Shown in pieces: positions 32,813 through 49,639 of a stretch of DNA of 64,000 nucleotides (position 1 is its first letter; each line of letters starts with the position of its first letter). Under the pieces are notes generated by a model, which had not been told where the DNA came from, did no database searches, and saw only the letters and a list, made by a program, of their open reading frames with translations. The stretch comes from Actinokineospora inagensis DSM 44258 (GTDB lineage Bacteria > Actinomycetota > Actinomycetes > Mycobacteriales > Pseudonocardiaceae), in assembly GCF_000482865.1 (NCBI RefSeq), contig NZ_AXWW01000037.1:1-64000 (forward strand), given 5' to 3'. Both the position numbers and the translations under genes were made by a program.

Positions 32813-33592
32813 TTATGACCTGCGGTTCCAGTTGCCGAGCCACGCGTGGCGGCCCACCTCCTCCAGCTCAGACTGGCGCAGTTGCCAGTCGGGCATCCAC
32901 AGGCTCATCCGTCGTTGCCATGGGCGCCCGTGGGCCGTGCCTGCGGGCTGGGTGGCGTGGGCTTGCTCGTGGACCAGCACGTACTCGATCAGCCTGGTCG
33001 GCAGGCCGAATGCCGCCCAGTGCAGAGTGGTGGTGTGGACGGAGGACGAGGTGTAGATGCCCCAGCGACGGCGTCCGAGGTCGCGGACGGCGTAGCTGAG
33101 GCCGATGATCCGGCCGTTGACCTCGTAGCGACGACCCTCGCGACGCAGCCACGCGAGTCCGACCTGCCGGTACAGGCCGATGACCGCGCGACGCACCAGC
33201 TCCGGGCGCTGCGTCCGCGCGTACAGGACACCATCCGCGGTGATCGCCGGGAGCTGGTCGACGCCCGGGGGCGGCGTTGTGACGAGACGGAGTCGGTAGC
33301 TGCGCCCGAGTAGGTTGAACTCCTCTCCGTCGATGAAGTCCTTCACCGCGTGGTTGGGAGCGAGACGCGTGGCTGTGTCGACGTGCTCGGAGATCCGGTG
33401 GCGGTGCCGGTCGACGAACCGGGCGATGTCGTCCGGTTCGGCCGTCGGTGGGACCAGGATGACGACGGTGCCTCCGGGGTGGATTTGGATTGCCGCAGTG
33501 CGGCGCCGTGGGCGGATCGTCACGTCCATCCGCCATGCGGCGGGCAGGTCGAGCGCTGCTAGCGCGGTGTGGAAGTGGTGGGGGTTGGTCAT
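32813..33592 (-). CDS. YgjP-like metallopeptidase (DUF45)
   Basis: A 259-residue protein. The C-terminal half has the zinc motif VLVHEQAHATQ (HExxH) with a third ligand candidate in TAHGRPWQRRM about 20 residues on, as in YgjP/DUF45 metallopeptidases. The substrate is unknown; SprT/YgjP-type proteases often act on DNA-bound proteins. ATG 33592 overlaps the stop of dprA (ATGA), which fixes the start; the frame is open further but is antisense-like shadow there. Confidence 0.75.
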   Translation of the reverse strand: MTNPHHFHTALAALDLPAAWRMDVTIRPRRRTAAIQIHPGGTVVILVPPTAEPDDIARFVDRHRHRISEHVDTATRLAPNHAVKDFIDGEEFNLLGRSYRLRLVTTPPPGVDQLPAITADGVLYARTQRPELVRRAVIGLYRQVGLAWLRREGRRYEVNGRIIGLSYAVRDLGRRRWGIYTSSSVHTTTLHWAAFGLPTRLIEYVLVHEQAHATQPAGTAHGRPWQRRMSLWMPDWQLRQSELEEVGRHAWLGNWNRRS

Positions 33593-34467
33593 CGGAGTCC
33601 GTCCTGGTAGTTGATGTGTTCGACGGAGCTGGCCAGGGTTGCGGCGCCGGTGCGCAGCAGCTCGTGGACGCCTACCGACGTGGCCGAGTTGATGGGGCCG
33701 GGCACGCCGTAGGCCCGGCGGCCGAACTGGGTGGCGGCTCGGACGACGGCGAAGGCACCGCTGCGCTGGCCCGCTTCGACGATCACGGTCGCCGCGGTGA
33801 GGGCGGCCAGCAGTCGGCACCGGGTGTGGAGTCGGACGCGAGATGGTCGCGCACCGAGCGGGTACTCGCTGACCAGTAGCCCGCCGTTGTCGATCACGGA
33901 CTGGAACAACTGGGCGTGTGCGGAGGGGTAGGTCTGGTCGACCCCGTGGGCCAGGACGACGATGGTCGGCCCGTGGGCTGCGAGGGCGCCGCGGTGGGCG
34001 GCGGCGTCCACACCGAACCCGCCGCCGCTGATCACGGTCACCCCTGCTTCGGCGAGGTCGTAGCTCATCTCCGCCGCGATCGTCTCCCCGTAGGAGGAGG
34101 CGGCGCGGGCGCCGGTGATGGTGACGGCGTGGTGGGTGAGTGCGGCAAGGGATGCGTCGCCGCGCATCCAGAGGGCCAGCGGGGCGCCGCCACCTGGCAA
34201 GGAGGTCAGGCGACCGGTGGGCCAGTCGTTGTCCTCGGGGGTAATGACGCGTGCCGTGCCCGCGTCGAGTGCGCGTAGGTCGTCGCCTATCTGCGCTGCC
34301 GGGCGGGTGATCTCGTTGAGGACCGCGGCGGGGGCGCTGCGATCCCAGATGTGTTCGACCGTTTCGACCACTCCGTGAACGGCAACGTACTGGTGAAGGG
34401 CAGGCGCCGGTGGTTCGGCAGCCCGGAGGAGAAACAGGCGGGCGCGTAGGTCGTCGAGAACGGTCAT
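33589..34467 (-). CDS. DprA/Smf-like DNA-processing protein
   Basis: A 292-residue Rossmann-like DprA protein. Typical segments are SYGETIAAEMSYDLAEAGVT, VISGGGFGVDAAAHRGAL (about 150), IVVLAHGVDQTYPSAHAQLF and the VIVEAGQRSGAF helix near 235. DprA loads RecA on single-stranded DNA entering the cell; copies on mobile elements may protect or process transferred single strands. It lacks the N-terminal SAM and C-terminal winged-helix domains of the largest forms. Coupled to the metallopeptidase gene downstream. Confidence 0.85.
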   Translation of the reverse strand: MTVLDDLRARLFLLRAAEPPAPALHQYVAVHGVVETVEHIWDRSAPAAVLNEITRPAAQIGDDLRALDAGTARVITPEDNDWPTGRLTSLPGGGAPLALWMRGDASLAALTHHAVTITGARAASSYGETIAAEMSYDLAEAGVTVISGGGFGVDAAAHRGALAAHGPTIVVLAHGVDQTYPSAHAQLFQSVIDNGGLLVSEYPLGARPSRVRLHTRCRLLAALTAATVIVEAGQRSGAFAVVRAATQFGRRAYGVPGPINSATSVGVHELLRTGAATLASSVEHINYQDGLR

Positions 34468-34489
34468 GGTCGGTTCCTTGCTGGGTGTT

Positions 34490-35699
34490 TCAGGCCGCGG
34501 TATGGCGGGCTTGATGTACGGCGGTGATGGCCACGTCCGCGCGGTGTTCCAGCCGCGCGAGGACGGGGTCGGTGTGGTTGGCCCACGTGGCGGCGAAGGT
34601 GGGCAGCTCCTTGTCCTGCGCTAGGGCGGGAGCGACGGTGTAGAACTCCTCCAAGGTGGGGAAGGTGCTCTCGCTGCGTCTGCGCAGCCAGAGGCGCGGG
34701 TGGATGTCGCGATCACCGTCACGGACGGGTGCTCCGGCGATCTGTTCGTTCCTGGTCAACGCGATACCCGCGAGTCGGCCGATCTCAGCCAGTTCGGTGT
34801 GGATGGTGCAGTGTCCCGCGAACAGAACCCGGTCGACGGACCGGATCGCATTCGCGGGAGCGTGGTAGAGGCGGCGCACGCGGTAGATCGCCCACGGCAT
34901 CGTCTTCATTCGCGCGACAGCAAGGGTGATGGGCTCTGTCACCTGGTCGCGGCGGAGCCGCGTGATGAGCGACTTGCCGGGGCCGAACAGGCCCGACCGC
35001 GGGTTGAGGGCCAGGCACACGTACTCGTCGATGACGTGCTGCGCCGCTTCCGCGGGCAGCGCGGCGAACCGGGCACGTTGTTCGGGCCAGCCGAGTCGGT
35101 TGCCCGCGTACGGGCAATGGCGGCAGCAACTCTTCGGCCACACCACCCCCAGCTCTCGCAGGAGGTAGTCGACACAGTCCTGTCGGGTCCATCCCCACTC
35201 GTGAATCGGATAAGTCGGGATGCGCTGTCCGCCCATGGAGTACGCGGCATCGCGCGTGATCCTGGCGCCTTCATCGGCGTTGAACCCGATGGCGTGGAGG
35301 TAGGGCTGGTCGCCGAACTCGCGGGCGCGCCACGCGTCCAGCGGGGAGCCCTTGGCCTTCTGGCTGCATTTCCGAACCCCTCCGAGCTGAGGCATGGTGC
35401 CGGTGACGCGGTTCTCGCGCGAGAGCTTGTAGAACCCATCAAGGTGCAGCCGGTAGGGCTGGCGGGTGTCCTGGAGAACTGCGACACCGTCCGCCTTCCT
35501 GGGGCCGCTGCGGGCGACCTCGACCAGGCGGACGTGGCGACGGCGCAGCAACGGCAGGATGTAGTGCTGCACGAGCCTGCCCGTGGTGCTCCACTCGTCC
35601 CCGGTTTGGGCGATCACGACGATCAGGTTCGAGAAGTCCGGCGCGATCGTGTCGGGTCGCGCGGTGGGATCGGTGAGCATCCGCAGGAGTCCCGCTGTT
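34490..35699 (-). pseudogene. 3' part of an interrupted PP-loop ATPase (PAPS-reductase-like) gene
   Basis: This holds all but the first 27 codons of a PAPS-reductase-like PP-loop protein. It begins within AGLLRMLTDP and keeps DFSNLIVVIAQTGDEW, GTMPQLGGVRKCSQKAKG, YPIHEWGWTRQDCVDYLL and WPKSCCRHCPYAGN. The ATP-binding loop itself is missing because a transposon entered at 35700; it is found at 45516-45596. The frame stays open into the transposon (to 35833) but those residues are antisense to the YkvA gene and not homologous. The gene was part of the leftward operon ahead of dprA. Relatives on actinomycete elements are uncharacterised. The truncated protein cannot bind ATP normally. Confidence 0.8.
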
Positions 35700-35726
35700 G
35701 TTATGTAAACAGTCAAGCTGTCGCAG
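35700..35726 (+). repeat. Left terminal inverted repeat of the transposon
   Basis: Reads GTTATG, 11 variable bases (TAAACAGTCAA), then GCTGTCGCAG. The outer 6 and inner 10 bases are identical to the right end. A second TGTCGCAG follows about 16 nt further in. Confidence 0.8.
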
Positions 35727-35771
35727 TTGAGTCGGTGTCGCAGTGCGGCCAGCGCCGCCGGGTAGTCGCGA

Positions 35772-36200
35772 TTATTCGGAGTCGACGGGCCGGGCCAAGC
35801 CGGTGAGTCTGACCAGGGCGGTGAAGCCGTCATCGGTGCCGGGCCAGTGTGCGTGGACGGCGTCGAGTCCGGCTCGGCGGACGACGCCGCGCAGGACGGC
35901 GGTGACGATGATGGCGTCGTCGGCGTAGCCGAGCACGGGGATGAAGTCAGGAATCAGGTCGATGGGCATCGCCAGGTAAGCCAGTAGCAGCCCGAATCGG
36001 AGCCGGACACCACGCGGCAGGGTCTTGTCTCCGGCGAGCTGGTGGATCAGGCGCAGCACGTCGGGCAAGATCCGTAGCGCTTCACGCAGCAGGCCGTCGC
36101 GGGGCCGAATGATGGCCAGCACGGCCACGAGGACCAGCCATGTGAGCAACAAGGCGACGGCGATCCCGATGAGCAGATCCAGCCAAGGCAGACCGGTCAC
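35772..36200 (-). CDS. YkvA-like (DUF1232) small membrane protein
   Basis: A 142-residue protein with an N-terminal transmembrane helix (LIGIAVALLLTWLVLVAVLA) and the DUF1232 signature LLAYLAMPIDLIPDFIPVLG followed by YADDAIIV near residue 90. Function of the family is unknown. It starts 3 nt after the ArsR stop, so it is co-transcribed with the metal sensor. Its 3' end lies just inside the transposon's left end. Confidence 0.8.
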   Translation of the reverse strand: MTGLPWLDLLIGIAVALLLTWLVLVAVLAIIRPRDGLLREALRILPDVLRLIHQLAGDKTLPRGVRLRFGLLLAYLAMPIDLIPDFIPVLGYADDAIIVTAVLRGVVRRAGLDAVHAHWPGTDDGFTALVRLTGLARPVDSE

Positions 36201-36203
36201 GAC

Positions 36204-36593
36204 TCAGGTCCCGGTCGGGCGGTGCGGCAGGGCCTGCGCCGCGGCATGCTCGGAGGGGATGTCGCGGTCGATGTGGTCGGCGTGGAACAGCGCCTGCGCC
36301 AGCAGTGTCCGCACGTGGTTGTTCGCGGCGGAGTAGTAGACGAAGGTGCCCTCGCGGCGGCCTTTGACCAGGCCGGCGAGCCGGAGTTTCGCGAGATGCT
36401 GGCTGACCGCGGTCGGGGCAGCGCCCGCGAGCTCGGCCAGACACGCGACCGAGGATTCCCCTTGCAGCAGCGCCCAAAGGACCTTGATGCGGGTCGGGTC
36501 GGCCAGCAGCCGGAACGATTCGGCCGCGAGGTGGACCTGTTCGTCTCCGGGCATGTCGAACTCCGGCAGCGACGTGTGCATGTCAGCGAGCAT
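36204..36593 (-). CDS. ArsR/SmtB-family metal sensor repressor (alpha5 site)
   Basis: A 129-residue winged-helix repressor. Motif ESFRLLADPTRIKVLWALLQ, recognition helix PTAVSQHLAKLRLAGLV, wing RREGTFVYYSA. The last helix has H-x10-H-x2-H (NNHVRTLLAQALFHADH), the metal site of CzrA/NmtR-type Zn, Co or Ni sensors, with Asn in place of the usual first Asp ligand. Metal binding would release it from DNA. It is divergent from the CDF exporter, with a 9-bp-arm palindrome between them as the likely operator. Confidence 0.85.
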   Translation of the reverse strand: MLADMHTSLPEFDMPGDEQVHLAAESFRLLADPTRIKVLWALLQGESSVACLAELAGAAPTAVSQHLAKLRLAGLVKGRREGTFVYYSAANNHVRTLLAQALFHADHIDRDIPSEHAAAQALPHRPTGT

Positions 36594-36614
36594 ACCTGCT
36601 TGCCCTGCTGACTA

Positions 36615-36640
36615 CGTATCTGCATGCCTACGCAGATACG
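36615..36640. promoter_or_regulatory. Probable ArsR operator
   Basis: Perfect inverted repeat CGTATCTGC (36615-36623), 8-nt spacer, GCAGATACG (36632-36640). It lies 22 nt before the arsR start and 68 nt before the exporter start, the expected place for one operator controlling both promoters. Confidence 0.7.
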
Positions 36641-36707
36641 ATGCTAGCCTGGTCGTTGGCTGTCGTGTTTGTCGGCGCCGTCACGTGAGCACGAGGTAGG
36701 GACATTC

Positions 36708-37772
36708 ATGACCGAGCAGCACGACCACGCCGAGCACCACGGCCACGGTCATGGCCACGCGCACGGACACGGTCATACCGGCCGGTCGGGTGTGCTGGCG
36801 TCGGTGTGGAGGCATGTGCGGCATGCGGTCACCCCGCACAGCCACGACAGCGCCGATCGGCTCGACACCGCCCTGGAGACCAGCAAACGCGGCACACGCA
36901 CGCTGATCTGGTCGTTCGCCGCGTTGTTCGTCACCGCGATCGCGCAGCTGGTGATCGTGGTGTTCACCGGCTCGGTGGCGTTGCTGGGCGACACTATCCA
37001 CAACTTCGCCGACGCCCTGACTGCCGTGCCGATCGGTATCGCGTTCGTCCTCGGTCGCCGCGTGGCGACCCGGCGCTATACCTACGGCCTGGGTCGTGCC
37101 GAGGACCTCGCCGGCGTGGTCGTGGTCCTGATCATCGCCGGGTCGGCCGCGTTCGCCGGGTACGAATCGGTGCTGCGCCTGATCAATCCGCAACCGGTGA
37201 GCCATCTCTGGGTGGTCGCCGCGGCCGGGGTGATCGGGTTCGCGGGCAACGAGATCGTCGCCCGCTATCGGATCACTGTCGGGCGCGAGATCGGCTCGGC
37301 CGCGCTGGTTGCCGATGGCCTGCACGCCCGCACCGACGGGTTCACCTCGCTCGCGGTGGTCCTGGGTGCCGCCGGGGTCGCGCTCGGGTTCCCGCTCGCC
37401 GACCCGATCATCGGATTGGGGATCACGGTGGCGATCCTGTTCGTGCTGCGCGACGCCGCGAAGGAGGTGTTCCGGCGCCTGATGGACGCCGTCGACCCCG
37501 CCACCGTCGACCTCGTCGAGCGCACGGCCGGTGAGGTCGACGGCGTGCTGGGCGCGGGGCAGGTCCGGATGCGGTGGATCGGGCACAGCCTGCGCGCCGA
37601 ACTCGCCGTCACCGTCGACGCCGCACTGACCGTGGACCGGGCGCACCATCTCGCCCATGAGGTCGAGCATCGCCTGGTGCACACCGTGCCGCGACTGACC
37701 GCCGCGATCGTGCACACCGAACCCGGCGACGGAGCACAGGAAGCACACGACACCCTGGCCCGTCACCAGTGA
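36708..37772 (+). CDS. Cation diffusion facilitator (CDF) metal exporter
   Basis: A 354-residue CDF protein, a proton/metal antiporter of the cytoplasmic membrane. The His-rich N-terminus (HHGHGHGHAHGHGH) precedes six transmembrane helices. The metal site residues are in LLGDTIHNFADAL (DxxHNxxD, helix 2) and ADGLHARTDGF (HxxxD, helix 5). A cytoplasmic C-terminal domain follows. Start ATG 36708 is preceded by a GAGGTAGGG site. The neighbouring alpha5-type ArsR suggests Zn, Co or Ni as substrate. Confidence 0.88.
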   Translation: MTEQHDHAEHHGHGHGHAHGHGHTGRSGVLASVWRHVRHAVTPHSHDSADRLDTALETSKRGTRTLIWSFAALFVTAIAQLVIVVFTGSVALLGDTIHNFADALTAVPIGIAFVLGRRVATRRYTYGLGRAEDLAGVVVVLIIAGSAAFAGYESVLRLINPQPVSHLWVVAAAGVIGFAGNEIVARYRITVGREIGSAALVADGLHARTDGFTSLAVVLGAAGVALGFPLADPIIGLGITVAILFVLRDAAKEVFRRLMDAVDPATVDLVERTAGEVDGVLGAGQVRMRWIGHSLRAELAVTVDAALTVDRAHHLAHEVEHRLVHTVPRLTAAIVHTEPGDGAQEAHDTLARHQ

Positions 37773-37849
37773 GCGACTGATCGGGCCGACCCAGCGCCGG
37801 ATACGGAGACACGGGGTGGATTCTCCCGGCGCCGGGCCGCCCCCGATGC

Positions 37850-38764
37850 TCAGGCGGTCAGGGTGACCGTCGCGGTGCGCAGGGTGCCCCCGGTCTGGAA
37901 CTGCACGAACAACCGCCAGTTCCCCGCCCTCGGAAGTTCGGCGTGGAAGGACAGCGTCGGGCCGCCGTGATCCCCGTTGACCGTGCCTTGCGGGTGCAGG
38001 TGGGCGAAGGCGAGATCGCCCTCGTGGAAGGCGGTCAGGTGCGCGTAGGTGTCCAGGTAGGGCTGCAGGTCGGTGACCGGCTTCCCGCCCTGGGACACCG
38101 CCACGGTCAATGTGCCGGCCATGCCGCTCTTGACGTCACCGGACAGCGTCAGGGTGTAGCCGTCGACCTGGGTGGTGGTCGATGCCGCTGGCACAGGCTG
38201 TGTCGAGGCTGACCCGGGCACGGTGATCTGCTCGCTGAGCACCAGCGGCACCGCCTTGCCCGTGCTGTCCTTGGTGATGAACGACGTGTAGGCCCGGTAG
38301 GTACCGGCTTGCAGCGGCGCGACCGGCGCGGTCCAGGTGCCGTCCGCGGCCATCTCCGGGTGGATGTGCTGGAAGCCGGTCAGGTCCGACCGGACGAGGT
38401 AGAAGTGCATCAGCTTCGTCTGATCCGACTCGAAGGCGGTCACCGGCTTGCCGTCGGCGCCCTGGATCTGGAACCGCACCGACGCCGCCTGGTTCGCGGG
38501 CAGCGACGACACGCTGGGAGCGAAGCGGAAGCCGGACGCTGAGGCGGTCAGCCCATCTCCGGTCGGCATGTCGCCGTCCATGCCAGGCATTCCGGGCATG
38601 GAGTGCTGGCTGGCGGAGGTGGAGGGGTTTGTCGAGCCGTGGTCCATGCCGGACATCCCGGTGGACGAGTCGCTGCCGCAGGCGACCGCGGCCAGGCCGA
38701 CGACGGCTGCGAGGGTGGTCGTGGTGATCGCGCGGCGAACGCGCAGGGGTGATGACGTGTGCAT
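37850..38764 (-). CDS. Met/His-rich secreted lipoprotein, metal-associated
   Basis: A 304-residue lipoprotein with a lipobox near residue 28 (VVGLAAVACGS), then a Met/His-rich stretch (MSGMDHG, HSMPGMPGMDGDMP) like extracytoplasmic copper-binding segments. Two beta-sandwich-like domains follow, each ending in a His motif (FQHIHPEMAADG and LAFAHLHPQGTV). This layout is common beside DUF6153 genes in actinomycete metal clusters. Start ATG 38764 is preferred; the frame is open to 38794. Confidence 0.7.
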   Translation of the reverse strand: MHTSSPLRVRRAITTTTLAAVVGLAAVACGSDSSTGMSGMDHGSTNPSTSASQHSMPGMPGMDGDMPTGDGLTASASGFRFAPSVSSLPANQAASVRFQIQGADGKPVTAFESDQTKLMHFYLVRSDLTGFQHIHPEMAADGTWTAPVAPLQAGTYRAYTSFITKDSTGKAVPLVLSEQITVPGSASTQPVPAASTTTQVDGYTLTLSGDVKSGMAGTLTVAVSQGGKPVTDLQPYLDTYAHLTAFHEGDLAFAHLHPQGTVNGDHGGPTLSFHAELPRAGNWRLFVQFQTGGTLRTATVTLTA

Positions 38765-38863
38765 CAGATCAGTGCTCTCTCGGACGGCGCGCAACAGACG
38801 CGCGCAGTGAACGGGGGACGTCGTGGTTGCCCGGCCGGAGAAGGCCGGGTCACCGAGTCCCTG

Positions 38864-39340
38864 TCACGTCCGAGACACGCACAGGCTGATCAGCAGGGCG
38901 GGACCGGCACGGGGTACCGCGCCGCCCACTCGCGGCATCCCCAGGTTGGATTGTCCGAGGACGATCGGTTCCGTCAACGCGGTGGCAGAGGGCGCCGCTG
39001 GGGCGGCCAGCTCGCCCCGCGGGGGTGTGGAGACACACACCGCGCCGTGCCCGCCCAGGTGGGGCGTCGTCGCCAGGAGAGCGGGACCAGGCGCGGTCGA
39101 GGTGGTCTCGGCCATCAGTGCCTGGTGCCCGGCCGCTGGTGCGGCGGCCGGGTTCATCGGGGCGGTACCGCCGGAGCAGCCGGTGCCCATTGCCGGGCCG
39201 AGACTGTGCATGAACACGAGCCCGAGCAGCACGGCACACGCGGTCAGCGCGCGGGCTGTCACCCGCGCCACCGCGCTCACCTCGCCCACCGCGTCGCTCC
39301 GCTCATCACTTGGCCGGGTTTCTCCCGCCACCCTAGCCAC
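38864..39340 (-). CDS. DUF6153-family membrane protein
   Basis: A 158-residue protein with an N-terminal transmembrane helix (LTACAVLLGLVFMHSLGP), a small HQALM-containing segment and a Cys-His-containing C-terminal half, matching DUF6153. Such genes occur next to copper or other metal export genes, with no defined activity. It is read before the lipoprotein gene, 100 nt apart, and probably shares its promoter in the 263-nt gap at 39341-39603, in which I see no other gene. Confidence 0.65.
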   Translation of the reverse strand: MARVAGETRPSDERSDAVGEVSAVARVTARALTACAVLLGLVFMHSLGPAMGTGCSGGTAPMNPAAAPAAGHQALMAETTSTAPGPALLATTPHLGGHGAVCVSTPPRGELAAPAAPSATALTEPIVLGQSNLGMPRVGGAVPRAGPALLISLCVSRT

Positions 39341-39603
39341 GAGGAGGTGTTACCACTGGCCAGGGCGTCCCTCTGTGACGGCGGGGACGCGACGACCATT
39401 CCCCGCTGGCAGGCTCCCTGACGAGCACACCGTGTTGTCACTGACACGATTCGCTGCGGTCCGTGGTTGACCTTCTCGGCCCCGGGGGTTGCCGAGCCGC
39501 TGCCACGAACAGGGGCAGCGCAACGAAGATTCGAGCGCTGGTCCATCGACTCGCTGCGGGTCTCCTCGCACGAGTTGATGTGGTGATCGTTCTGTCGATG
39601 TGG

Positions 39604-40038
39604 TCAGGAACGGTCGGGCAGTGGGATCACATCGGGATCGGCGTCGGCCAGCCGGCGGTGGAGTTGCCGGGCCTGATCCTCCAACTCCGAGTTGCGCAGG
39701 GCAAGGACCTGGATCTGGTTGGCGTAGACCCTGTTCGTCTCCTCCAGTTCCCGCGCGGTCGCGGCGTGGTCGCTGGCAGCCTGTTTGCGTTCCCGCTTGA
39801 GGGCGGCGATCTCCTCGCGCAGCGCGACGAGTTCAGGTTGCTGGGCTTCTCGGTTCGCTTGTGCCGCAACAACGGCGTCCTTGAACTCCGGGGGCGAGCG
39901 GTAGAACGAGTCACGGCCCACTCCGGCTTCCCGGCAGAGGTTGGAGACCGTCAGCTCGCCGTCGGACGCGGTCGGCTGGCCGGCGAGCAGCCGGGTCAGC
40001 GCCTGCTCCAGGCGGGCTTGGGTGGCGGCGCGGGTCAC
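39604..40038 (-). CDS. DUF6262/TnpC-like transposition accessory protein
   Basis: A 144-residue protein. The N-terminal third is a helix-turn-helix (TVSNLCREAGVGRDSFYRSP), followed by a coiled coil (about 65-135: LREEIAALKRERKQAASDHA and on). Proteins of this plan follow the recombinases in Tn554-like and trio elements and fix insertion orientation in Tn554. Overlaps the third recombinase by 4 nt. Confidence 0.75.
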   Translation of the reverse strand: MTRAATQARLEQALTRLLAGQPTASDGELTVSNLCREAGVGRDSFYRSPPEFKDAVVAAQANREAQQPELVALREEIAALKRERKQAASDHAATARELEETNRVYANQIQVLALRNSELEDQARQLHRRLADADPDVIPLPDRS

Positions 40039-42146
40039 GCCTGCGCCTCCTCGCTGTCGAGATCACCGATGAGCTGGTCGAGCTCGGTGATGTAGCCGGT
40101 GAGTGCGACCTGCTGGAGTTTCGGGACCGGACCGGCCTTCTCGCAGGACGACTGGAGATCCAGGGCCTGATCGCGGGCGGCGGCCAGCCGGGGACGGTGC
40201 ACTGTGGACCGTCGGGCGTTCGGACAGCGCAGGCACATGTTGTGCTGCGGAACGGGCTGGCCGACGATCTTGGCGCGCTTGACGCAGACCGCGGTCGCCG
40301 CGTTGAAGAAGCAGTCGTTGAGCACGCCGGGATGCAGCGTCTTGGTGAGGTGGCGCAACATCGTCCGCAGCCGCAGCTCGTCGGACACGACGCCGGCCAG
40401 GTCACCCAGTTCGCGTCGGATGCGCTGGAATTCGGCGTTGATCCGCTCGGCGGCCCCACCGCCGGACTGGGCGCCGGTGTTCCAATCCCGGTAGAGATCC
40501 TCCACGTAGTCGAGCATGGCGACCGCCTCCTCGGCGGCGACCTCGGCGGCGAACCCGGAGGCTGAGGTTCCGGCATAGCCCTCGAACATGGTCACCTTGG
40601 CGTGGTGGTACTGCCGGGCACCGGCGACCACACCGAAGGGCTGGTGTGCGATATGCCAGGCCAGACTTCGCCGGAACTGCCTGGTGGTGAACACCCACTG
40701 CTGATCCCCGTCGGCGGGGATGAACGCTTCGGCCACCCCGCCGGACGAGTGGGTGCCGAACAGGTCGTTGACGTGGTCTCGGAAACCACCGAGGCGCTCG
40801 GTGAGCTTGTTCGCCAGCCGTGGCTTGCTGGTGGGCCAGAGCCGGTAGCCGAATAGATGCGTGGGGTCGTCGTTGATCTGCAGCAGGACGTCGATCGCCT
40901 CGTGAACGTGGTCGAGCACGACCCACTCGGCCTCGTCACCGGTGAGCTTGCGGCCCTTGAAGACCCGGCCGCGCAGCTTGTGACGGGTCCGGCCGTCCAC
41001 AGCGGTGGTGGTGACCGCGCAGTCCCGCGCCAGCTCCAGGACCTCCATGTCCCGAAGTCCTGACAAGTACGCCACCAGCACCCAGCAGGCGGTGCGCAGG
41101 TGGTGCAACTCGTCATGCAGGCTGCGGTGGTTCAGCCGCCCTCGCCAGGGCCGCCCGGTGTCCGGCCACGTCGAGATCGGTGTGTCCAGGCCACCCTCTT
41201 CGTAGCCGAGCTCGGCGCCGGCCTGCTCCATCAGTCGTGTCGGATGTCCCTGGAAGCTGTTGGTTCCGCTCATCAGGGCGACGAGTGCGGCGTTCGGGGC
41301 TTGCACGACGCCGTCGACAACCGGCGCGGTCGGGCGCTGAGCCAGGCAATACGGCGGCAGTGCGGGAACGCCCCGTCCCTGCTGGCGGCGGCGGTCCAGG
41401 AACGCCTCGATCTTGGTGACGGCCTCGCCGTGCCAGCACCGGCCGCCTGCTCGGGCCTGTTCCAGGTCTGCGATTTCCCGTTGGGCGGCCAGGAGGTCCC
41501 GGCTGGCGGTCTGGACGTAGAACAGGGCGGCGCGCAGCAGTGGAGCCATGATCGGCTCGGGGATGCGCGGGGTGCTGTTCTCCTCGTCCGGTCCCCGCCC
41601 GGCGACCTAGGTGGCCGGGCGTCCCTTCCAGGGTACGACGGTGAGGCGGTCCGCGGTCAGGTGCGGGCTGTGCGCCTCCAGGTGCTGGATGACGCCGATC
41701 CGGACGGCCAGCGTGTTCGGCACACAGGTCTCACCCCAGGCGCGTGCGGTCGCGTCCAGGTGGGATTGGCGGGCCTGCGCCAAGCGCGTCACGCCCTGCT
41801 TGCCGAGCTCGGCGAACAGTTGACGCACGATGATGAAGTCCTTGTAGGTGTTGGTGATCTTCATCGGCCGGGCGGTCCGCGATCCGTAGGACAGCGGGAC
41901 CACGCGATGGATGCGGGAGTAGATGAACTCCTTGGCCGTGAGCGTCGCGATCTCGTCGGGTAACTCGGTGAAGTCCAGCCGGAGGTAGCCGTTGCTGCGC
42001 GGCGCGAACGGCCGGAAGTCCCAGATGTCGTCGCTGAACCGGGGGCCTCGGCCGGTTGTCTCGGTGGTCAGGGACTCGGGCAGCACCCAGGGATCGGCCG
42101 AGGGCTCCGGCGCGGCGGACGGGCGTGGTGCGGGGGCGCGGGTCAC
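40035..42146 (-). pseudogene. Third tyrosine recombinase of the trio, interrupted by an amber codon
   Basis: A 703-codon recombinase gene. GTG 42146 overlaps the second recombinase (GTGA). The first 179 codons encode the N-terminal domain ending VVPWKGRPAT, then TAG at 41607-41609. The same frame continues without any shift: VAGRGPDEENSTPRIPEPIM, then APLLRAAL and the catalytic domain (Arg in YLSGLRDMEVLEL, RQFRRSLAWHI, C-terminal FEGYAG). The ENSTPRIPEP segment is conserved in the family, so the stop falls inside real coding sequence. A downstream ATG (41549) gives a 504-residue fragment lacking the DNA-binding domain. Confidence 0.85.
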
Positions 42147-43981
42147 GCGACGGCCTCCCAGAACTCGGGCGGCAGCAGCAACCGTGCCCCGCCGCTTTCG
42201 GCGATCGTTTGCGCGGTGGTGATCTGCTCGTCTCGGAACTTGGCCCGGATGCCGCGCACGATCCGGTCCCAGGCCAGGCCGTAGCGCACGTTCCACTCGG
42301 CGACGGGGTACTCCTCCCGCTGACGCTCGATGAAGTCCAGGAAGGTCAGCACCTGCGGCAGATGCCGGGTGGTGAACACCGCGTTCGGGCACTCCAGGCA
42401 GCCCCACAGCGACACCGGGCACGGCTTGCCCTTCGCCCCGAAGGGCGAGTCGTAGAAGTCGCGGCAGGAGGCCAGGAACACGTCGCTCTCGCGCGACAGC
42501 AGCGCCTGCACCTGCTCGGGCGGCAAGTCCTCTCCGCCGGCATCGAGGCGGGTGCCGTCCTCGTCGAGTACCACCGGCGGCGGCAGCGCGACATCCAGCG
42601 CTTCGCGCAGGCCGTTCTCCACGGCCTGGTCGTGCACCTCGTCGTGGGCGGGGATGTTGGCGTAGTGCTGGGCGGCGACGTCGGTGGTGTGGCCCTGGGT
42701 GAAGTCGGCGAGCACACCGGTGGCTTTGAGGTATTGCTGGGACTTGTAGGTCTTGCGCAGCCGCCGCAGATCCAGCCGTACCAGGGTGCCGTCGGTGTCG
42801 GTCATCTGGTCGATGCCGTGTCGTTTCTGCCAGTTGTCCACGTGACCCCACGGCCCTTGCCCGCCGAGCGGGAAGGAGTCGCGCAGGCCCTTGTCTCCGT
42901 AGTCGACCCACAGATCGGTGCTGCCACTGAACTCGCGGGCTCGCGCGGTGAGCCGCAGCGCCAGTCGGATCAGGCCGCCGGGATGGTGCAGGGCACCGCC
43001 ATCGCTGACCCGCGTGGATTTGGAGATCCGGCGCCCGTGTGCTCGTCGTTTGACGTAGTTGATGCTCACGAACCCGCGGGCGGGGTTGGTCAGGCAGTCG
43101 GCCTGCAACCGCTTGGCGCATTCCGGCTCAAGCCCGGTCATGCAGATGAGCAGGATCAGGAACACGACGTTGTCCTCGCGGGTGAGGAGGAGCGCCGCGT
43201 TGAGCGGGCGCCCGTTGCCCAGTCTCTTGCCGACCATGGGGCGCAGGAACTGCATCGTGACGGGCCCGTGACGGGCGATGTGCCACAGCACGTTCTCGAT
43301 CACGTCCCAACCGCCGACGTTCGGGTCCTGGCCCGTGGCGGCACGAGCTTCGCCATCCTGTATCCGGCGCGCGATCGCGCGGACATCCGCCAGCGCCGCG
43401 TTGCGGATCGCCTGGAAGACGTTCTGCGGGTAGGCATCCAAGGGTCTGATCTGACGGGCACGGGTTTCCCGTCCGAGGAACCTCAGCCTGATAGCCAGGT
43501 CGGGATCGAACGTCGTGGGGCTGGCGTCGAACGCCACGCGGAGCAGCCGGACCACCACGCCGATACTGATGCGCGGCTGGTCGCTGTCCGATCCGTACTC
43601 GGCGAGCAACGCCTGCTCGAAAGCGTCGATGTGCTCGGCCTCCAGGTCACTGAACTCGACCTCGGTGGCGTTCTGCGATTCGGCTCCGGCGATGAACCGC
43701 ACGAACTTCCGCACCGAGAACAGGTTCACCTTGAACGCCTGGTAACTCGATCCGGGTCCGTCGGCGGCCACCGTGCGCAGCGTCTCGGCGAGCTGGCGGG
43801 TCAGCCGCGGGCACGGCCACGCGGACATGTCGAACGTGCGGTCGTCGCCATCCAGGTGCAGCCGGAGCACCAGCGGACCGATGTCCGGGACAGGAGCGGG
43901 TGGCGCGGGCATCTGCTCCTCGGTCGGGAAGGACGCCCAGCGGCCACGGCGACCGGAGCCGGCTCCCTCGATGCGGCTCAC
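42143..43981 (-). CDS. Second tyrosine recombinase of the trio
   Basis: A 612-residue recombinase. The core-binding region is near 95-170. The catalytic domain contains RRLRKTYKSQQYL and QGHTTDVAAQHYANIP (His and nucleophile Tyr), and a Cys-rich end (CLECPNAVFTTRHLPQVLTF). At the place of the first catalytic Arg the sequence is MTGLEPEC, with Glu instead of Arg, so it may depend on its partners. It overlaps the genes on both sides by 4 nt. Confidence 0.8.
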   Translation of the reverse strand: MSRIEGAGSGRRGRWASFPTEEQMPAPPAPVPDIGPLVLRLHLDGDDRTFDMSAWPCPRLTRQLAETLRTVAADGPGSSYQAFKVNLFSVRKFVRFIAGAESQNATEVEFSDLEAEHIDAFEQALLAEYGSDSDQPRISIGVVVRLLRVAFDASPTTFDPDLAIRLRFLGRETRARQIRPLDAYPQNVFQAIRNAALADVRAIARRIQDGEARAATGQDPNVGGWDVIENVLWHIARHGPVTMQFLRPMVGKRLGNGRPLNAALLLTREDNVVFLILLICMTGLEPECAKRLQADCLTNPARGFVSINYVKRRAHGRRISKSTRVSDGGALHHPGGLIRLALRLTARAREFSGSTDLWVDYGDKGLRDSFPLGGQGPWGHVDNWQKRHGIDQMTDTDGTLVRLDLRRLRKTYKSQQYLKATGVLADFTQGHTTDVAAQHYANIPAHDEVHDQAVENGLREALDVALPPPVVLDEDGTRLDAGGEDLPPEQVQALLSRESDVFLASCRDFYDSPFGAKGKPCPVSLWGCLECPNAVFTTRHLPQVLTFLDFIERQREEYPVAEWNVRYGLAWDRIVRGIRAKFRDEQITTAQTIAESGGARLLLPPEFWEAVA

Positions 43982-45417
43982 GCGGCAGCACCGTCGGAAA
44001 GCCGGACCCTGCTCAGCGCCTCGGCTTGTTCATCCCATTCGCGCAGCGCGGACAGCACGATCTCCTGCGCCTCGTCCAGGACGTCGAGGTAGACGAAGAC
44101 CGTCTCGCGCTGGCGATGGCCGAGCAGTAGCTGCAACTTGCGCAGCGGGTCGCCGACCAGCAGACGTTTCACCTGCTGGCTCATCAGGGTCTCGCCGGGC
44201 TCCATGCGCAACGCGCGGACGGTCTGGCGCAGCAGCAGCCCGAGCATGTGCACGGCGAAGGTGTGACGCAGGGCGTGGGGATGGACCACCAGGTCAAGGC
44301 CGAACCGGGCGCACCGTTCGTTGGCTCGTCGAAACACCGCCTGCCAGGTCGACCGCGACAGCGGCAGACCGTCCTCACCAAGCCATAGCCACAAAGGACC
44401 ACCCAGACCGTCATCGCCAACCCGGCACAGTCGCTGCCGTTCCTCGATCGTCACCCGCGAGTACGGCCGCGAGCGGCCATCCTCGACGAGGGTCAGTGCA
44501 GTCTTGCCGGCGGAGCGAACTCCCATCCAGTCGTCCGCACACCCGTAAGCCCCTGCTGCCCGGCGGCGCTCGACCAGCTCGTCGCGTTCGATGTCGACGT
44601 AGTGGTGCAGGTCGCGCAGCACGCGCCGTGACACGAACACCGTCCTCGGCCGGCTGCGCTTGGTGATCGTCGCGGGCAGGTTCAGGTCTCCGGTCAGCCG
44701 CCGCTGCGCCAGCGGCGGCACCTCGGTGACCAGCAGGCTCGACGCCTCCCTCAGCCGCATCCCGGTGCAGACCAACAGGTCGGCGAACACCGCGTTGCGT
44801 TCGCCGTGCCGACCGCGCCAACTCGGGTCCGGCGAGCCGTCGGGTAGTTGGCCACGCAACCCGACGTCCCGCCACGCCAGGTAGTCCTCGTAGGCCAGGA
44901 ACCGCACCGGCCCGGCGCTGTCCTCGACCTCGCGCTCGGCATTGAACAGCACCCGTACCAACCCGCGGGGCGTCAACACCGTCTTCTCCACCATGCGGAA
45001 CGGCTGGGCCTCGATCAGCTCCTCGTGCATCGCCCACTTGACCCACTTGTCCAGCGCCGCGATGAACCTGTTCCAGGTCGACGCGGACACCGTGAAACCC
45101 TTCGTCCGCCGACGCGCCCGCTTGTAGGCGCGCAGATCGTCCTGGCTTGCGTCCCTGATGGACCGTCCACCACGGTGCTCATGGAGAAAGCGGCCGAACA
45201 GCATCAGATCACGCGCGTACGCCTCCCTCGTGTGCTCCGAGCGCACACCCCACCCATCCAACTCGCGCACGAACCGGTTCAACTCCAGGTCGTACGAGCC
45301 GTCGGGGCCGAGCAGGAACGGCAGCCCGTCGCCTACACCGGCACGACGGAGCACTTGGGCTTCGTCACCGCCGAGCCCAGGCACGTCGAGAGCTCTCACC
45401 GGTGACGTCTTGTACAT
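43978..45417 (-). CDS. First tyrosine recombinase of the trio
   Basis: A 479-residue recombinase with an intact catalytic set: Arg in CTGMRLREAS (near 235), HPHALRHTF (near 385) and LLGHRQRETVFVYLDV with the nucleophile Tyr near 445. It has an N-terminal core-binding domain (EHTREAYARDLMLFGRFL). I start at ATG 45417; the frame is open to 45759 but crosses the transposon end at 45515, so the longer form cannot be native. It leads the recombinase operon; its promoter must lie in the 98 nt to the right end. Confidence 0.85.
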   Translation of the reverse strand: MYKTSPVRALDVPGLGGDEAQVLRRAGVGDGLPFLLGPDGSYDLELNRFVRELDGWGVRSEHTREAYARDLMLFGRFLHEHRGGRSIRDASQDDLRAYKRARRRTKGFTVSASTWNRFIAALDKWVKWAMHEELIEAQPFRMVEKTVLTPRGLVRVLFNAEREVEDSAGPVRFLAYEDYLAWRDVGLRGQLPDGSPDPSWRGRHGERNAVFADLLVCTGMRLREASSLLVTEVPPLAQRRLTGDLNLPATITKRSRPRTVFVSRRVLRDLHHYVDIERDELVERRRAAGAYGCADDWMGVRSAGKTALTLVEDGRSRPYSRVTIEERQRLCRVGDDGLGGPLWLWLGEDGLPLSRSTWQAVFRRANERCARFGLDLVVHPHALRHTFAVHMLGLLLRQTVRALRMEPGETLMSQQVKRLLVGDPLRKLQLLLGHRQRETVFVYLDVLDEAQEIVLSALREWDEQAEALSRVRLSDGAAA

Positions 45418-45486
45418 GAGCAAAGTCGAGATCCTCCAGGATCTAAACACGCCGAACACGCCGAACCTGGCGTTGGCTAGGGACTT

Positions 45487-45515
45487 CTGCGACAGCAGTG
45501 AAGTGTCACCATAAC
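45487..45515 (-). repeat. Right terminal inverted repeat of the transposon
   Basis: On the minus strand it reads GTTATG, 13 variable bases, GCTGTCGCAG, matching the left end. Two direct copies of ACGCCGAAC lie just inside (about 45449-45467). Confidence 0.8.
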
Positions 45516-45596
45516 TGTCGACTCGGCGCCCATCCCGTAGGACCAGACGTAGAACCTCGGGTAGCAGCGGCTGGCGGGTGTTCGAGTACAGGTCAT
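45516..45596 (-). pseudogene. 5' end (27 codons) of the interrupted PP-loop ATPase gene
   Basis: From ATG 45596 (GGAGAG 5 nt upstream) the frame encodes 27 residues ending FYVWSYGMGAEST, the ATP-binding PP-loop of PAPS-reductase-like proteins. The transposon starts at the next base. The continuation, AGLLRMLTDP, is at 35.7 kb. It sits 36 nt after the previous gene of the operon. Confidence 0.8.
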
Positions 45597-45632
45597 GCCG
45601 CTCTCCGCGGTGATGTCGTTGTGGTTCAGCGG

Positions 45633-46159
45633 CTAGAGCATCGGCGGGAATCGCCAGGTGATGGGCCGGAACCGCAGGGGTGTCGTGCCCGCGTAGGAGG
45701 CGGCGAGGTTCCCGTGGTCGGTGATCACTCGGTATCCGGCGATCCACACCGCGAACCACGGTTCCGCGGCGGCGCCGTGGCGAGCCGCCGCGTCGGGGGC
45801 GGACACCATGTTGGTGTCCAGCCGGGGCGCGGACGAGCGGTAGTGGTCAGGCGGCCGTTGATCATGGGGCAGGCTTGGATGGTGTAGGCCGCGCACCAGG
45901 GGTGCAGGGCGGGTTCACTGGAGCACTGGCGGACCACGTCGGACATGCGCATCATCAGCACCGCGCGGTGTTCCAGCGGCAGGCCGCAGACCCCGCACAG
46001 CCGTCCGTGTAGGGCGTGGTCCACGCGGTCGCGATCGACCGATCCGAACAGGAATCGCCCATCGGCTGTGCGGGGCGTAACCCAGGGAACCACCAGCCCG
46101 CCCACGGTGGGGAGCTGTCGCAAGGGCTCAGGGATAGGCGGGACGGCAGAGGTAGTCAT
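45633..46159 (-). pseudogene. ICE/phage-type protein of unknown function with a one-base frameshift
   Basis: ATG 46159 opens a frame for a conserved but uncharacterised actinomycete-element protein: PLRQLPTVGGLVVPWVTPRT, then RLCGVCGLPLEHRAVLMMRM and EPALHPWCAAYTIQACPMIN, with paired Cys suggesting a metal site. After NGRLT (near 45846) the natural continuation HYRSSAPRLDTNMVSAP then PWFAVWIAGYRVITDHG lies one base out of phase. CTGACCACTAC instead of CTGACCCACTAC points to loss of one C. The second part ends at 45633. A sequencing error would look the same. Confidence 0.65.
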
Positions 46160-46292
46160 GATCTTCTTCTTGCTGTGTAGTTGGTCGACCACGTGCACTG
46201 ACGCGGACGAGCCCGGAACGTGTCGGGTCAGGTCCGCGGCCTGACCCCGGTGTTCGACACCCGGGGGCCAAGCCGCGGAGGTGGGACCCGTG

Positions 46293-46604
46293 TCAGTCGG
46301 GCCAGGAGGGTTGAAACTCGCGCGGTAGCCCGTCGAACCGCCAGCGCCCGAAAACCTCGTGCCGACCGTCGCGCCATCGGACATGCGCGCGTGGCACGCA
46401 GTAGTTCGGCCCGGAGGTCGTTTCATCGCCGTGCTGGTGGCGACGTCGGGTGGCGGTGATCGTGATCTCGATGTTGCCGTGAGCCGTGTAGCCGGTCACC
46501 TTGGCAGGCACGAGACCGACCAGGTACGCGTCAAGGAACACCAGGTCCCCGACCCGCACCACGGTGGGCTCGACCGGCCCCGCGTCGCGACCGGACGCGC
46601 TCAC
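46293..46604 (-). CDS. Hypothetical protein (103 aa)
   Basis: Not recognised. It looks like a small beta-rich protein (VVRVGDLVFLDAYLVGLVPA, then ARVRWRDGRHEVFGRWRF-like end) without Cys clusters or membrane segments. Its start overlaps the stop of the upstream gene (ATGA), which supports it as a real operon member. Confidence 0.55.
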   Translation of the reverse strand: MSASGRDAGPVEPTVVRVGDLVFLDAYLVGLVPAKVTGYTAHGNIEITITATRRRHQHGDETTSGPNYCVPRAHVRWRDGRHEVFGRWRFDGLPREFQPSWPD

Positions 46605-47182
46605 GGAGTCTCCTCCGCTCGCTGGTGGGCGAGCATGAGGTACACGACGGGGGATTCCCCTACGTGGTGCCGCTGTCCGGTGTCATCCGTCCAGACCGGG
46701 CCGTCGAACAGTGGGGCCGTGCCGTGTCTGGTGATGTGTGAGGCGAGCGCGGTGAGCGTCGCCTCGAATCGGTCCCACGGCGCCAGGTAGCCCTGCGCTC
46801 TGCGCAGCAGCAGGTCATACCGCGCCCGCGTGCCCTCATCGAGTTGGTCGTACAAGCCCATGAGCCGGAACCGGGCGTCAGCGACCGGCGTGATGTGCTC
46901 GGACACGTGGAACGACCGGACGTGTTCCTCGGAGTTCAGGAACATGACCACCAGCTCGGTGTACGTGCTGGCTTTCGGGTTGTTCCAATACAGGTAGTCC
47001 CGTTGGGGGTCGGTGGTCTGCGACATGAAGCGTTGCAGCCTCCGATGCTTGCCTCTCTTCCCGTTCTCGACCCAGTAACGGATCTGGCACCGCAACGTGC
47101 GTCCGTAGGGGTAGTCGTCGACCAGGTATGCGGTGTCCGGGCTGGTGTGGCCACGGAGAATGTTGACGCGCTGGATATCCAT
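46601..47182 (-). CDS. Hypothetical ICE protein (193 aa)
   Basis: Not assigned to a known family by eye. The protein is mixed alpha/beta (RTLRCQIRYWVENGKRGKHR near 25, FRLMGLYDQLDEGTRARYDL near 105) with no signal, membrane segment or motif. ATG 47182 is preferred; the frame is open 20 codons further. It is coupled to the next gene and lies between the amidotransferase and PP-loop genes in the leftward operon. Confidence 0.6.
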   Translation of the reverse strand: MDIQRVNILRGHTSPDTAYLVDDYPYGRTLRCQIRYWVENGKRGKHRRLQRFMSQTTDPQRDYLYWNNPKASTYTELVVMFLNSEEHVRSFHVSEHITPVADARFRLMGLYDQLDEGTRARYDLLLRRAQGYLAPWDRFEATLTALASHITRHGTAPLFDGPVWTDDTGQRHHVGESPVVYLMLAHQRAEETP

Positions 47183-47299
47183 ACTTGCGACTTTCTTTCG
47201 AGCGGCGTGCCGGACGCCCCGCGCACGGGACGTCCGGCACACGAATACAACACTGTGAGAGAAGAACGGACGTCCTATGAGGACTGGCTAGTGGGCGGC

Positions 47300-48100
47300 T
47301 CAATCGAAGAGGGATGGCGGCTGGTCGAAGGTCTCCCACGCTTGGCCGCCCACATCGTCGGAGCTGGTCGCCCAGCCAACGGGGAGATAGCACACGCAGT
47401 GGCCGTCCAATTCTTCGCAGTCCATACAGGTTCCGCAGACCCGGCAGAAGCCGGTCACGAAGTCGACGGTGTCGAGTTCAAGGCATCCTGTGCACTGGCC
47501 ATCCAACAGGAACGGGTGGTCCGAGTCCGGTTCCGCCTGATAGCTGCCGTTCGAGTACCAGATGCCGCCATCCCACGTCCCGCTGTCCTCACCGAGGATG
47601 TAGGCGGACCTGCGGTATCGGGGGTTCACGGTCAGGATCACGACCTTGTTGGACGCGCCTAGCCACCGTTGGAACGCCGTTCGCCCCTGCCGGGTCGTCA
47701 ACGAACCGAACGGTTGGCGAGGTAGGAAGTCCTCCGCCGCGATCCGGGTATCGCACCGCCCGTCACGGCCCCGCGGCCACAGCTCCGACGGAAGAACCCC
47801 GTTGTGCGCCAACACCGTGCGGGGGTCGTTCCCCAGGGGGAACGGGTGGCAGTTACGGGTACCTCTCGTGCCCCCGGTCGACAGGCGGGAGTGGAACAGC
47901 GCCGGACCGCCGGGATGTTGTGCCCGGTCGCTTTGGAACTCGCCGATCAGTGCATCGGGGTTCATCCCGTGCCGCACGATCAGGTGCCGGTCGGCTGTGA
48001 CGATGGCGTAGCCGTGCCCATCCTCGTTCGCTTGCGCTCCGCGTGCCAGTGCGGCGACGTCGGGTTGGACCCCTTCCGGGAAGAACGTCAGCAGGCACAC
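47300..48100 (-). CDS. Class II glutamine amidotransferase-like protein (Ntn hydrolase)
   Basis: A 266-residue protein. GTG 48100 makes Cys the second residue (M-CLLTFFPEG), as required for the N-terminal nucleophile of class II amidotransferases. Further signatures are HGYAIV near 32, the FHSRLSTGGTRG segment near 75 and VLAHNGVLPSE near 98. The C-terminus adds a Cys-rich zinc-ribbon (CTGCLELD, CRVCGTCMDCEELDGHCVC). It overlaps the amidoligase gene by 13 nt, so glutamine-derived ammonia could feed that enzyme. Confidence 0.8.
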   Translation of the reverse strand: MCLLTFFPEGVQPDVAALARGAQANEDGHGYAIVTADRHLIVRHGMNPDALIGEFQSDRAQHPGGPALFHSRLSTGGTRGTRNCHPFPLGNDPRTVLAHNGVLPSELWPRGRDGRCDTRIAAEDFLPRQPFGSLTTRQGRTAFQRWLGASNKVVILTVNPRYRRSAYILGEDSGTWDGGIWYSNGSYQAEPDSDHPFLLDGQCTGCLELDTVDFVTGFCRVCGTCMDCEELDGHCVCYLPVGWATSSDDVGGQAWETFDQPPSLFD

Positions 48101-49212: not shown

Positions 49213-49391
49213 AGCGGGCTTACTCCCGTGGTGCCAAGAGGCCGGTAGTGGGCGGCAACCCGCTACCGGCCTCGCCAACGCAAGCTAGGGGCCAGAACGC
49301 GCCCCAGACAACGGCAGGCAGCCAAGACTCGGCGTGCCTGCCGGTCTGGCATCAGGCCAGACCCGTATACGCATGTGTTCGCCTAAGCAGG

Positions 49392-49438
49392 CGTGGCCAC
49401 ACACGGTCACCCACAAGGGAAGACCGTGTATGACCACG
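49392..49438. repeat. 17-bp inverted repeat upstream of the amidoligase operon
   Basis: CGTGGCCACACACGGTC (49392-49408) and GACCGTGTATGACCACG (49422-49438) match at 15 of 17 positions with a 13-nt loop. It is 180 nt upstream of the amidoligase start, so it may be an operator, a terminator or a nick-site hairpin. Confidence 0.5.
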
Positions 49439-49639
49439 CGCACTCAGAAGTGCACGAATCAAGAGATAAAGAAGTGACGTTGTGTCTAGCGCGCAATGCA
49501 GGGAACTATGCCCGTAAGGGTGTGGCGTGCTATAGGCACGTGAGAGCGAAGCCCTCAGCATCGAATGCCCAATGTCGGCAACCGCCTGAGACAACCCCGA
49601 ACGCCCACGCATCGCGACGTCTGTCGGTGCTAGACCACC

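Follow-up and report, generated by a model that had tools for sequence, protein, structure and literature searches.

Genomic Islands with three Integrases (GInts) carry the genes ginABCD (Bardaji et al. 2017, PMC5385486), and strand-biased circularizing integrative elements (SEs) carry intA-tfp-intB-srap (PMC10214605). SEs keep the 6 bp of the target site attB at one end, attL, and hold a 6-bp fingerprint at the other, attR, a rule on donor and target bases that rests on three laboratory insertions (PMC10214605); what is said of these and other described systems, here and below, refers to the available portions of the papers cited. Here, we analyze an element of comparable organization in Actinokineospora inagensis DSM 44258 (contig NZ_AXWW01000037.1, positions 1 to 64,000; this whole stretch of 64,000 nucleotides is the window), in which about 9.8 kb of foreign DNA on the minus strand separates the 5' and 3' halves of a PP-loop gene. 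GInts, SEs, Tn554, and recombinases-in-trio (RIT) elements were set beside it by their descriptions, gene order, and ends rather than by protein comparison. The element very probably represents an actinobacterial subfamily of GInt/SE-like elements with one preferred target, the last two motif codons (Ser-Thr, or Ser-Val in one inferred donor) of a PP-loop family that is common on plasmids.

The locus resembles GInts in its site specificity, its four-gene operon at one end, and the short opposite (3') end (PMC5385486). As described for GInts, cargo begins around the end of the fourth gene: similarity between copies ends inside gene D of the window, and only the last ~55 bp are shared beyond it. 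A 6-nucleotide exchange with hybrid att sites is a further likeness, visible in 13 copies, with a mechanism that here would follow from the sequence pattern. The differences lie in the target, which for GInts is named as an ABC transporter gene, ssb, or a ribonucleotide reductase gene; in the box-I arginine, missing from the third GInt protein and, in the present element, from the second; and in the hosts, Actinobacteria not being among the phyla named in the available text of PMC5385486. SEs share the retention of the 6 bp of attB at attL, the foreign 6-bp fingerprint at attR, the imperfect terminal repeats, and, if the motif reading is right, the gene order with a degenerate recombinase in second place; they differ in target gene and, in the portions of PMC10214605 at hand, are reported only from Gammaproteobacteria, whereas the named hosts of the close family described here are Actinomycetota. 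Tn554 and related actinobacterial elements are alike in their 6-bp footprint and in site-specific insertion in Actinobacteria (PMC3414803). Tn554 has nothing equivalent to the extra protein (PMC10214605), two large proteins being encoded here besides that of gene A. The exact set TnpA, TnpB, TnpC is not matched, as an additional large gene lies between genes A and D. The first-pass annotation had called the insert a transposon; it is a mobile element, although a four-gene one of GInt/SE-like type and not a plain transposon.

The empty site and the split gene

The insertion is established by a relative of the same genus (G244) in which the target gene is whole and both window flanks are contiguous. 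Window positions 32814-35698 align to it at 95.4% identity and 45515-49855 at 93.3%, with a 4-base overlap, ACAG, and the gene in G244 is open from MTKTRTPVSRRYPMFYVWSYGMGAESTAGLLRM onward. In the window, both halves are in frame and free of stops. Because its 3' half matches phrog_424 in PHROG (E = 1.1e-11), the target is named PP-loop or PAPS-reductase-like; a Pfam scan of the gene gave nothing useful. The motif SYGMGAEST, at which the 5' fragment ends, we take to be the PP-loop, that is, the ATP-binding loop.

Much of the first-pass annotation stands up to this comparison. It had proposed a gene split at SYGMGxEST with both halves readable (45596-45516 and 35695-34490, the whole gene being found in G244), inverted terminal repeats at 35700 and 45515, which are present as stated, and an element younger than the gene in its setting, for which it suggested looking for an empty site in related ICEs; G244 provides such a site. 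It had also named, as points that would count against it, a family lacking the loop and relatives with the same arrangement but without recombinases, and neither is borne out. All 12 close relatives uninterrupted at the insertion point (L003-L009, L011-L014, L016) carry SYGMGAEST, some of them with a stop or frameshift further along the gene, and copies elsewhere have recombinase genes between the halves. Eleven more distant target-gene loci have a variant of the motif or none in the stretch shown.

The insertion cuts the ATP-binding loop, and the downstream half gains a new N-terminus from the element end. The open frame of the 3' fragment continues into that end, spanning 34490-35833, and in 13/13 copies the ~20 codons leading up to the right junction are free of stops in the target frame; the annotation of the M. 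chubuense copy places a protein start at a TTG within the terminal repeat. Inactivation of the target gene is expected, because the loop itself is lost. As a separate observation, the element right end in the window (35700-35833) supplies a start codon and an open frame that enters the 3' half of the target.

At the left end, the minus strand reads from 45515 downward GAGTCGACA, then GTTATGGTGACACTTCACTGCTGTCGCAG across the boundary, and at the right end the plus strand reads GTTATGTAAACAGTCAAGCTGTCGCAG (35700-35726). The terminal motifs occur without mismatch in all matches listed by pattern searches that allowed up to 3 mismatches, and the genome of the window has a single match to the left motif. 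The coordinates of the element and its parts are collected in Table 1.

Table 1. Features of the split PP-loop gene and of the inserted element, in window coordinates
Feature	Coordinates	Strand	Basis or remark
Target PP-loop (PAPS-reductase-like) gene, 5' fragment, 27 codons ending SYGMGAEST	45516..45596	-	translation; unbroken homologue in G244
Target gene, 3' fragment, AGLLRMLTDP...	34490..35695	-	frame, stop at 34490; phrog_424 match
Inserted element between the two 6-bp spacers, 9,814 bp	35701..45514	-	empty-site comparison; ends compared across copies
attL, 6-bp spacer CGACAG	45515..45520	-	equals empty-site spacer of G244
attR, 6-bp spacer CAACAG	35695..35700	-	type of genes L004-L008 and L014; read as donor fingerprint
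Left terminal repeat TTATGGTGACACTTCACTGCTGTCGCAG	45487..45514	-	
Right terminal repeat TTATGTAAACAGTCAAGCTGTCGCAG	35701..35726	+	
Gene A, 479-aa tyrosine recombinase (HxLRH, LGH...Y)	43978..45417	-	Pfam PF02899, PF00589; NCBIfam
Gene B, 612 aa, conserved TGxEPEC and GHT..VA..HY	42143..43981	-	alignment motifs
Gene C, ~703 codons, in-frame stop at 41607-41609	40035..42146	-	703-704 aa and open in relatives read
Gene D, 144 aa, TnpC/GinD/Srap-like position	39604..40038	-	DUF6262 and transposase helix-turn-helix, weak, below Pfam cut-offs
Cargo: DUF6153-like protein	38864..39340	-	below cut-off
Cargo: Met/His-rich lipoprotein-like protein	37850..38794	-	weak YtkA and cupredoxin matches, below cut-off
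Cargo: cation diffusion facilitator (Cation_efflux)	36669..37772	+	
Cargo: ArsR-family regulator	36204..36593	-	
Cargo: DUF1232 protein	35772..36200	-	

Thirteen copies and their spacers

Relatives of gene B were found in 41 of 390 genomes of the family (E <= 0.001) and in 7 of 397 genomes of the order (E <= 1e-60), the latter including the window's own genome, a broken copy (G085), and two relatives at 38-39% identity; the left-end pattern was present in 8 of 396 genomes of one mycobacterial genus. Pattern searches for the two ends identified 13 copies, counting that of the window, distributed over 11 genomes; a single M. chubuense plasmid carries three of them. Copies were defined by both ends, and genes A-D were checked in part of the 13. 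For M. vinylchloridicum, the two ends come from different contigs, and we assumed them to form one copy. Left flanks terminate in S[YW]G[ML]Gx[ED]ST, that is, at the Ser-Thr codons of the PP-loop motif, in 12/13 copies.

The 6-bp spacers at the two ends (Table 2) are identical in 2/13 copies and differ in the rest; compared by eye, attL and attR differ at 0 to 4 of the 6 positions, and at 3-4 positions in 4/13 copies.

Table 2. Spacers at the two ends of the 13 copies
Copy	attL	attR
Window	CGACAG	CAACAG
Amycolatopsis 2-2	CAACGG	CGGTCG
A. echigonensis	CAACCG	CCACCG
M. chubuense plasmid, first of three copies	CCACGG	CGACTG
M. chubuense plasmid, second copy	CCACGG	CCACCG
M. chubuense plasmid, third copy	CCACCG	CCACCG
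G563	CCACCG	CCACCG
M. iranicum	CAACGT	GCACGG
G524	CGACCG	GCACGG
M. novocastrense	GCGGGG	GCACGG
G972	GCACGG	GCACCG
Mycobacterium metagenome-assembled genome	CAACCT	GCACCG
M. vinylchloridicum	GCACCG	CCACCG

Uninterrupted PP-loop genes provided 46 native spacers of 25 kinds, taken from 26/26 mycobacterial and 20/21 Pseudonocardiaceae loci given (L029 has no motif), the set being exclusive of L022 and of loci without the N-terminal half. Among the 33 of these 46 genes given for comparison, an empty relative with at least 90% identity downstream was found for 4/13 sites. attL matches the spacer of the empty relative exactly in 3/4 (the window, A. echigonensis, and the Mycobacterium metagenome-assembled genome), and attR in 0/4. 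The attR spacers recur among the 46 native ones in 11/13 copies, or 5/6 kinds, compared with 1.3% for background 6-mers. The sixth kind, GCACCG, seen in two copies, is found as attL in the M. vinylchloridicum copy. CGGTCG, the attR of the Amycolatopsis 2-2 copy, is native to genes of a Ser-Val subfamily (L024, L026, L027), and even the M. novocastrense copy, which lies off the target motif, has an attR (GCACGG) that is native in five similar PP-loop genes. From this pattern, attL would be the target's own 6 bp and attR a fingerprint of the donor gene. Since donor and target differ at 0-4 of 6 positions, identity of their spacers seems not to be required. The previous site of the window copy would have been a TCA-ACA-G gene, of the type of L004-L008 and L014, unlike its present host gene.

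A mechanism of the kind described for GInts and SEs would produce this arrangement. The proteins of genes A-D would cut a 6-bp spacer in the target, whose own 6 bp would remain beside the gene-A end as attL, and the 6 bp carried on a putative circular form would be deposited at the opposite end; attR would be the fingerprint of the previous site because it is these circle-borne bases that are laid down there. Such a process would presumably share the strand bias for which SEs are named. The spacer straddles two codons, so that differences between donor and target would often fall at third positions. The 13 natural copies bear on the SE rule, with target and donor spacers readable against uninterrupted genes.

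Several points weigh against this account or narrow it. The M. novocastrense copy and the deleted G085 copy, which has no right end, are not at the PP-loop motif, and the attL of Amycolatopsis 2-2 is one base off its best empty relative. Some of the 46 native spacers come from near-identical genes, so that the set is not one of independent observations. The copies were found through the ends of their own close family, so that 12/13 is valid for that family only; among more distant gene-B loci (from a set of 80, of which 30 lay outside the upstream scan), a PP-loop motif lies within 3 kb upstream of gene B in 0/45 scanned, and exact-motif targeting by the wider gene-B family is not claimed. The recombinase identity of B and C would rest on motifs: neither has a recombinase model in Pfam (single proteins and alignment members) or NCBIfam, profiles of both gave no credible match to Protein Data Bank (PDB) sequences, and profile-profile comparison gave no support over whole lengths and, for the cores of A, B, and C, did not rise above shuffled controls, the observed score of the core-trimmed pairs being reached by 6, 11, and 7 of 40 shuffles each. 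An alignment of B with C is limited to their N-terminal parts (hhalign probability 62, E = 7.5e-5), and no fold was identified.

Other explanations account for parts of the same record. The first-pass annotation had placed the boundary by a shared ACA, as a Tn554-type or other transposon with a 3-bp target duplication would predict, and TGT/ACA is indeed common to both ends in the window (45516-45518 and 35696-35698, with an extra base at 35699). A duplication rule does not hold, however: the three bases at that position differ between the ends in 6/13 copies (by eye), attR resembles other PP-loop genes and not the local target, and ACA is mostly the conserved AC of the Thr codon. Because the end 6-mers are identical in just 2/13 copies, the boundary reads as an exchange of 6-bp spacers in the manner of Tn554, GInts, and SEs, and a duplicating transposon is very improbable. 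An ordinary tyrosine-recombinase island with two-strand exchange, its spacer differences arising later by mutation or heteroduplex repair, is a less remote but still unlikely alternative. Heteroduplex repair together with hybrid att sites is reported for GInts (PMC5385486), and the one-base departure at attL of Amycolatopsis 2-2 could reflect repair or mutation; the attR spacers that differ at 3-4 of 6 positions in four copies nonetheless remain of PP-loop spacer type, unlike the products of random mutation.

That the halves in the window are in frame and without stops might suggest a reversible switch, in which precise excision restores the PP-loop gene and the element regulates its target. 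Against such a switch, which we consider barely credible, the window copy carries an in-frame stop in gene C, cargo varies between copies, G524 and two of the M. chubuense copies have a frame-shifted or shortened downstream half, that of A. echigonensis has a stop, and that of Amycolatopsis 2-2 is split again by two more inserts. The consecutive, overlapping recombinase-like genes in one direction recall RIT elements, but these have three genes, ritABC (PMC3414803), and the fourth, TnpC-like gene, the cargo, and the 6-bp spacer signature of the present element make that assignment highly doubtful. The chemistry of the GInt/SE-like exchange is of a known kind, and the PP-loop target appears undescribed: in the open-licence literature searched, neither this target nor the element as a named transposon was found, which is not proof of absence.

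The PP-loop gene family as a target

Of 72,556 plasmid records, 112 contain a relative of the target gene, in every case at <60% identity; among 50,697 phage records there was one weak match. For mycobacterial genomes with a target match and at most 10 contigs, 15 of the 18 listed could be placed, 3 on contigs of chromosome size and 12 on contigs <700 kb, of which one, from a ten-contig assembly, measures 48 kb. Landing in a gene common on plasmids would presumably help the element to travel, and the element clearly illustrates how a transposon can select a conserved coding motif within such a gene.

The family also seems to attract several elements of this sort. In Amycolatopsis 2-2, the target gene is in four pieces relative to L011, and the first gap corresponds to the present element, whose gene B is 96% identical to that of the window. 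Two further inserts fall within L072 and L073. A second insert of ~15 kb (G318:C1 895261-910464) lies at a Cys-Pro motif with TGTC repeated, and a third of ~20 kb (910566-930455 of the same contig) follows Glu-Tyr-Val and has the ends TTATGTAGGG and CACATAA; they contain distant gene-B relatives at 30% (897086-898573) and 28% identity (912161-913903), respectively. In the third insert the right-end CACCGC equals L011 and the left-end GCTGGC differs, which would be the reverse of the attL/attR rule if L011 is taken as native. Gene-B relatives were also found within 30 kb of PP-loop-like gene pieces in four further genomes (G041, G065, G022, G179), in a search of 21 gene-B and 16 PP-loop places picked by hand.

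Taken with the spacers, these observations make it reasonably probable that the element homes from one PP-loop gene to the next and crosses actinobacterial families, chiefly on plasmids and integrative and conjugative elements (ICEs), recognizing a conserved coding motif, tolerating up to 4/6 spacer mismatches, and leaving each copy with a six-base barcode of the gene it left. The gene family would then be a shared landing pad, for the three gene-B inserts of one Amycolatopsis 2-2 gene and for other recombinase-bearing inserts at a mycobacterial Cys motif.

A separate large insert splits mycobacterial PP-loop genes at Cys-Pro-Phe (SYC/PF), in L225/L224 (G966:C33) and L227/L226 (G1070:C32), with the ends TTATGTGGAAT and ATTCGCAATAA in the former and TTATGTGGAAT and TATTCGCAATAA in the latter. 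Just inside it lies a recombinase-like frame of ~350 codons with HxLRH, followed by a frame of 614-657 codons, and the right junction is the same in a third locus (G759:C3; L228, L229).

Core genes, cargo, and surroundings

Genes B, C, and D each overlap the preceding gene by 4 bp, as in the annotated M. chubuense copy, by comparison with which the start of gene A was set. The operon may be of GInt type, with A a tyrosine recombinase by model, B and C putative recombinases by motif only, and a small helix-turn-helix-like D. Gene B has no match in Pfam, NCBIfam, or PHROGs, and its TGxEPEC...HY pattern is read as that of a degenerate tyrosine recombinase; gene C, with no match in Pfam or NCBIfam, has SGMRDxEV...FRR...GYAGTS, read as near-canonical recombinase motifs. 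By this reading, B (TGxEPEC) lacks the box-I arginine that C (SGMRDxEV) has. Gene D resembles the small TnpC/DUF6262-like protein of Tn554, DUF6262 being linked to TnpC. The frame of gene C is open at the position of the window's stop in Amycolatopsis 2-2 and A. echigonensis. That stop may be a sequencing error; if genuine, it may leave the window copy unable to move on its own. Relatives of gene B at 35-38% identity are common in Alphaproteobacteria (L091-L153; L193, pNL1), and in several of the alphaproteobacterial loci checked and in pNL1, B and C are not followed by a D gene of the actinobacterial kind.

One core carries exchanged cargo, which in the window copy is metal-related. The same core, over 5.88 kb at 95% identity, is found at the same codon with other cargo in Amycolatopsis sp. 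2-2 and A. echigonensis, and similarity between the window and one M. chubuense copy extends over the first 5.84 kb, at 95.2%, and reappears only in the last ~55 bp. With the copies that carry mercury cargo, for which merA and merB are annotated in M. chubuense, similarity stops at window position 39673, inside gene D. Amycolatopsis sp. 2-2 (L062/L072) and M. chubuense pMYCCH.01 (L154) share a mercury-cargo copy of 14,258 bp at 99.96% identity, and from this near-identity transfer between the families is judged to be recent.

The first-pass annotation had described the target as an ICE gene, a label that is reasonable because matches to PrgI, TraG/VirB4-type, and coupling proteins occur at 21-27 kb of the window, which also has an integrase at 12.6-13.9 kb. 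The ICE borders were not found: a repeat of the tRNA-Val 3' region, sought within the window, gave just a 16-17-base match, to the other tRNA-Val gene. At window 32813-34467, adjoining the PP-loop gene, are genes for a DprA-like protein and a YgjP-like metallopeptidase.

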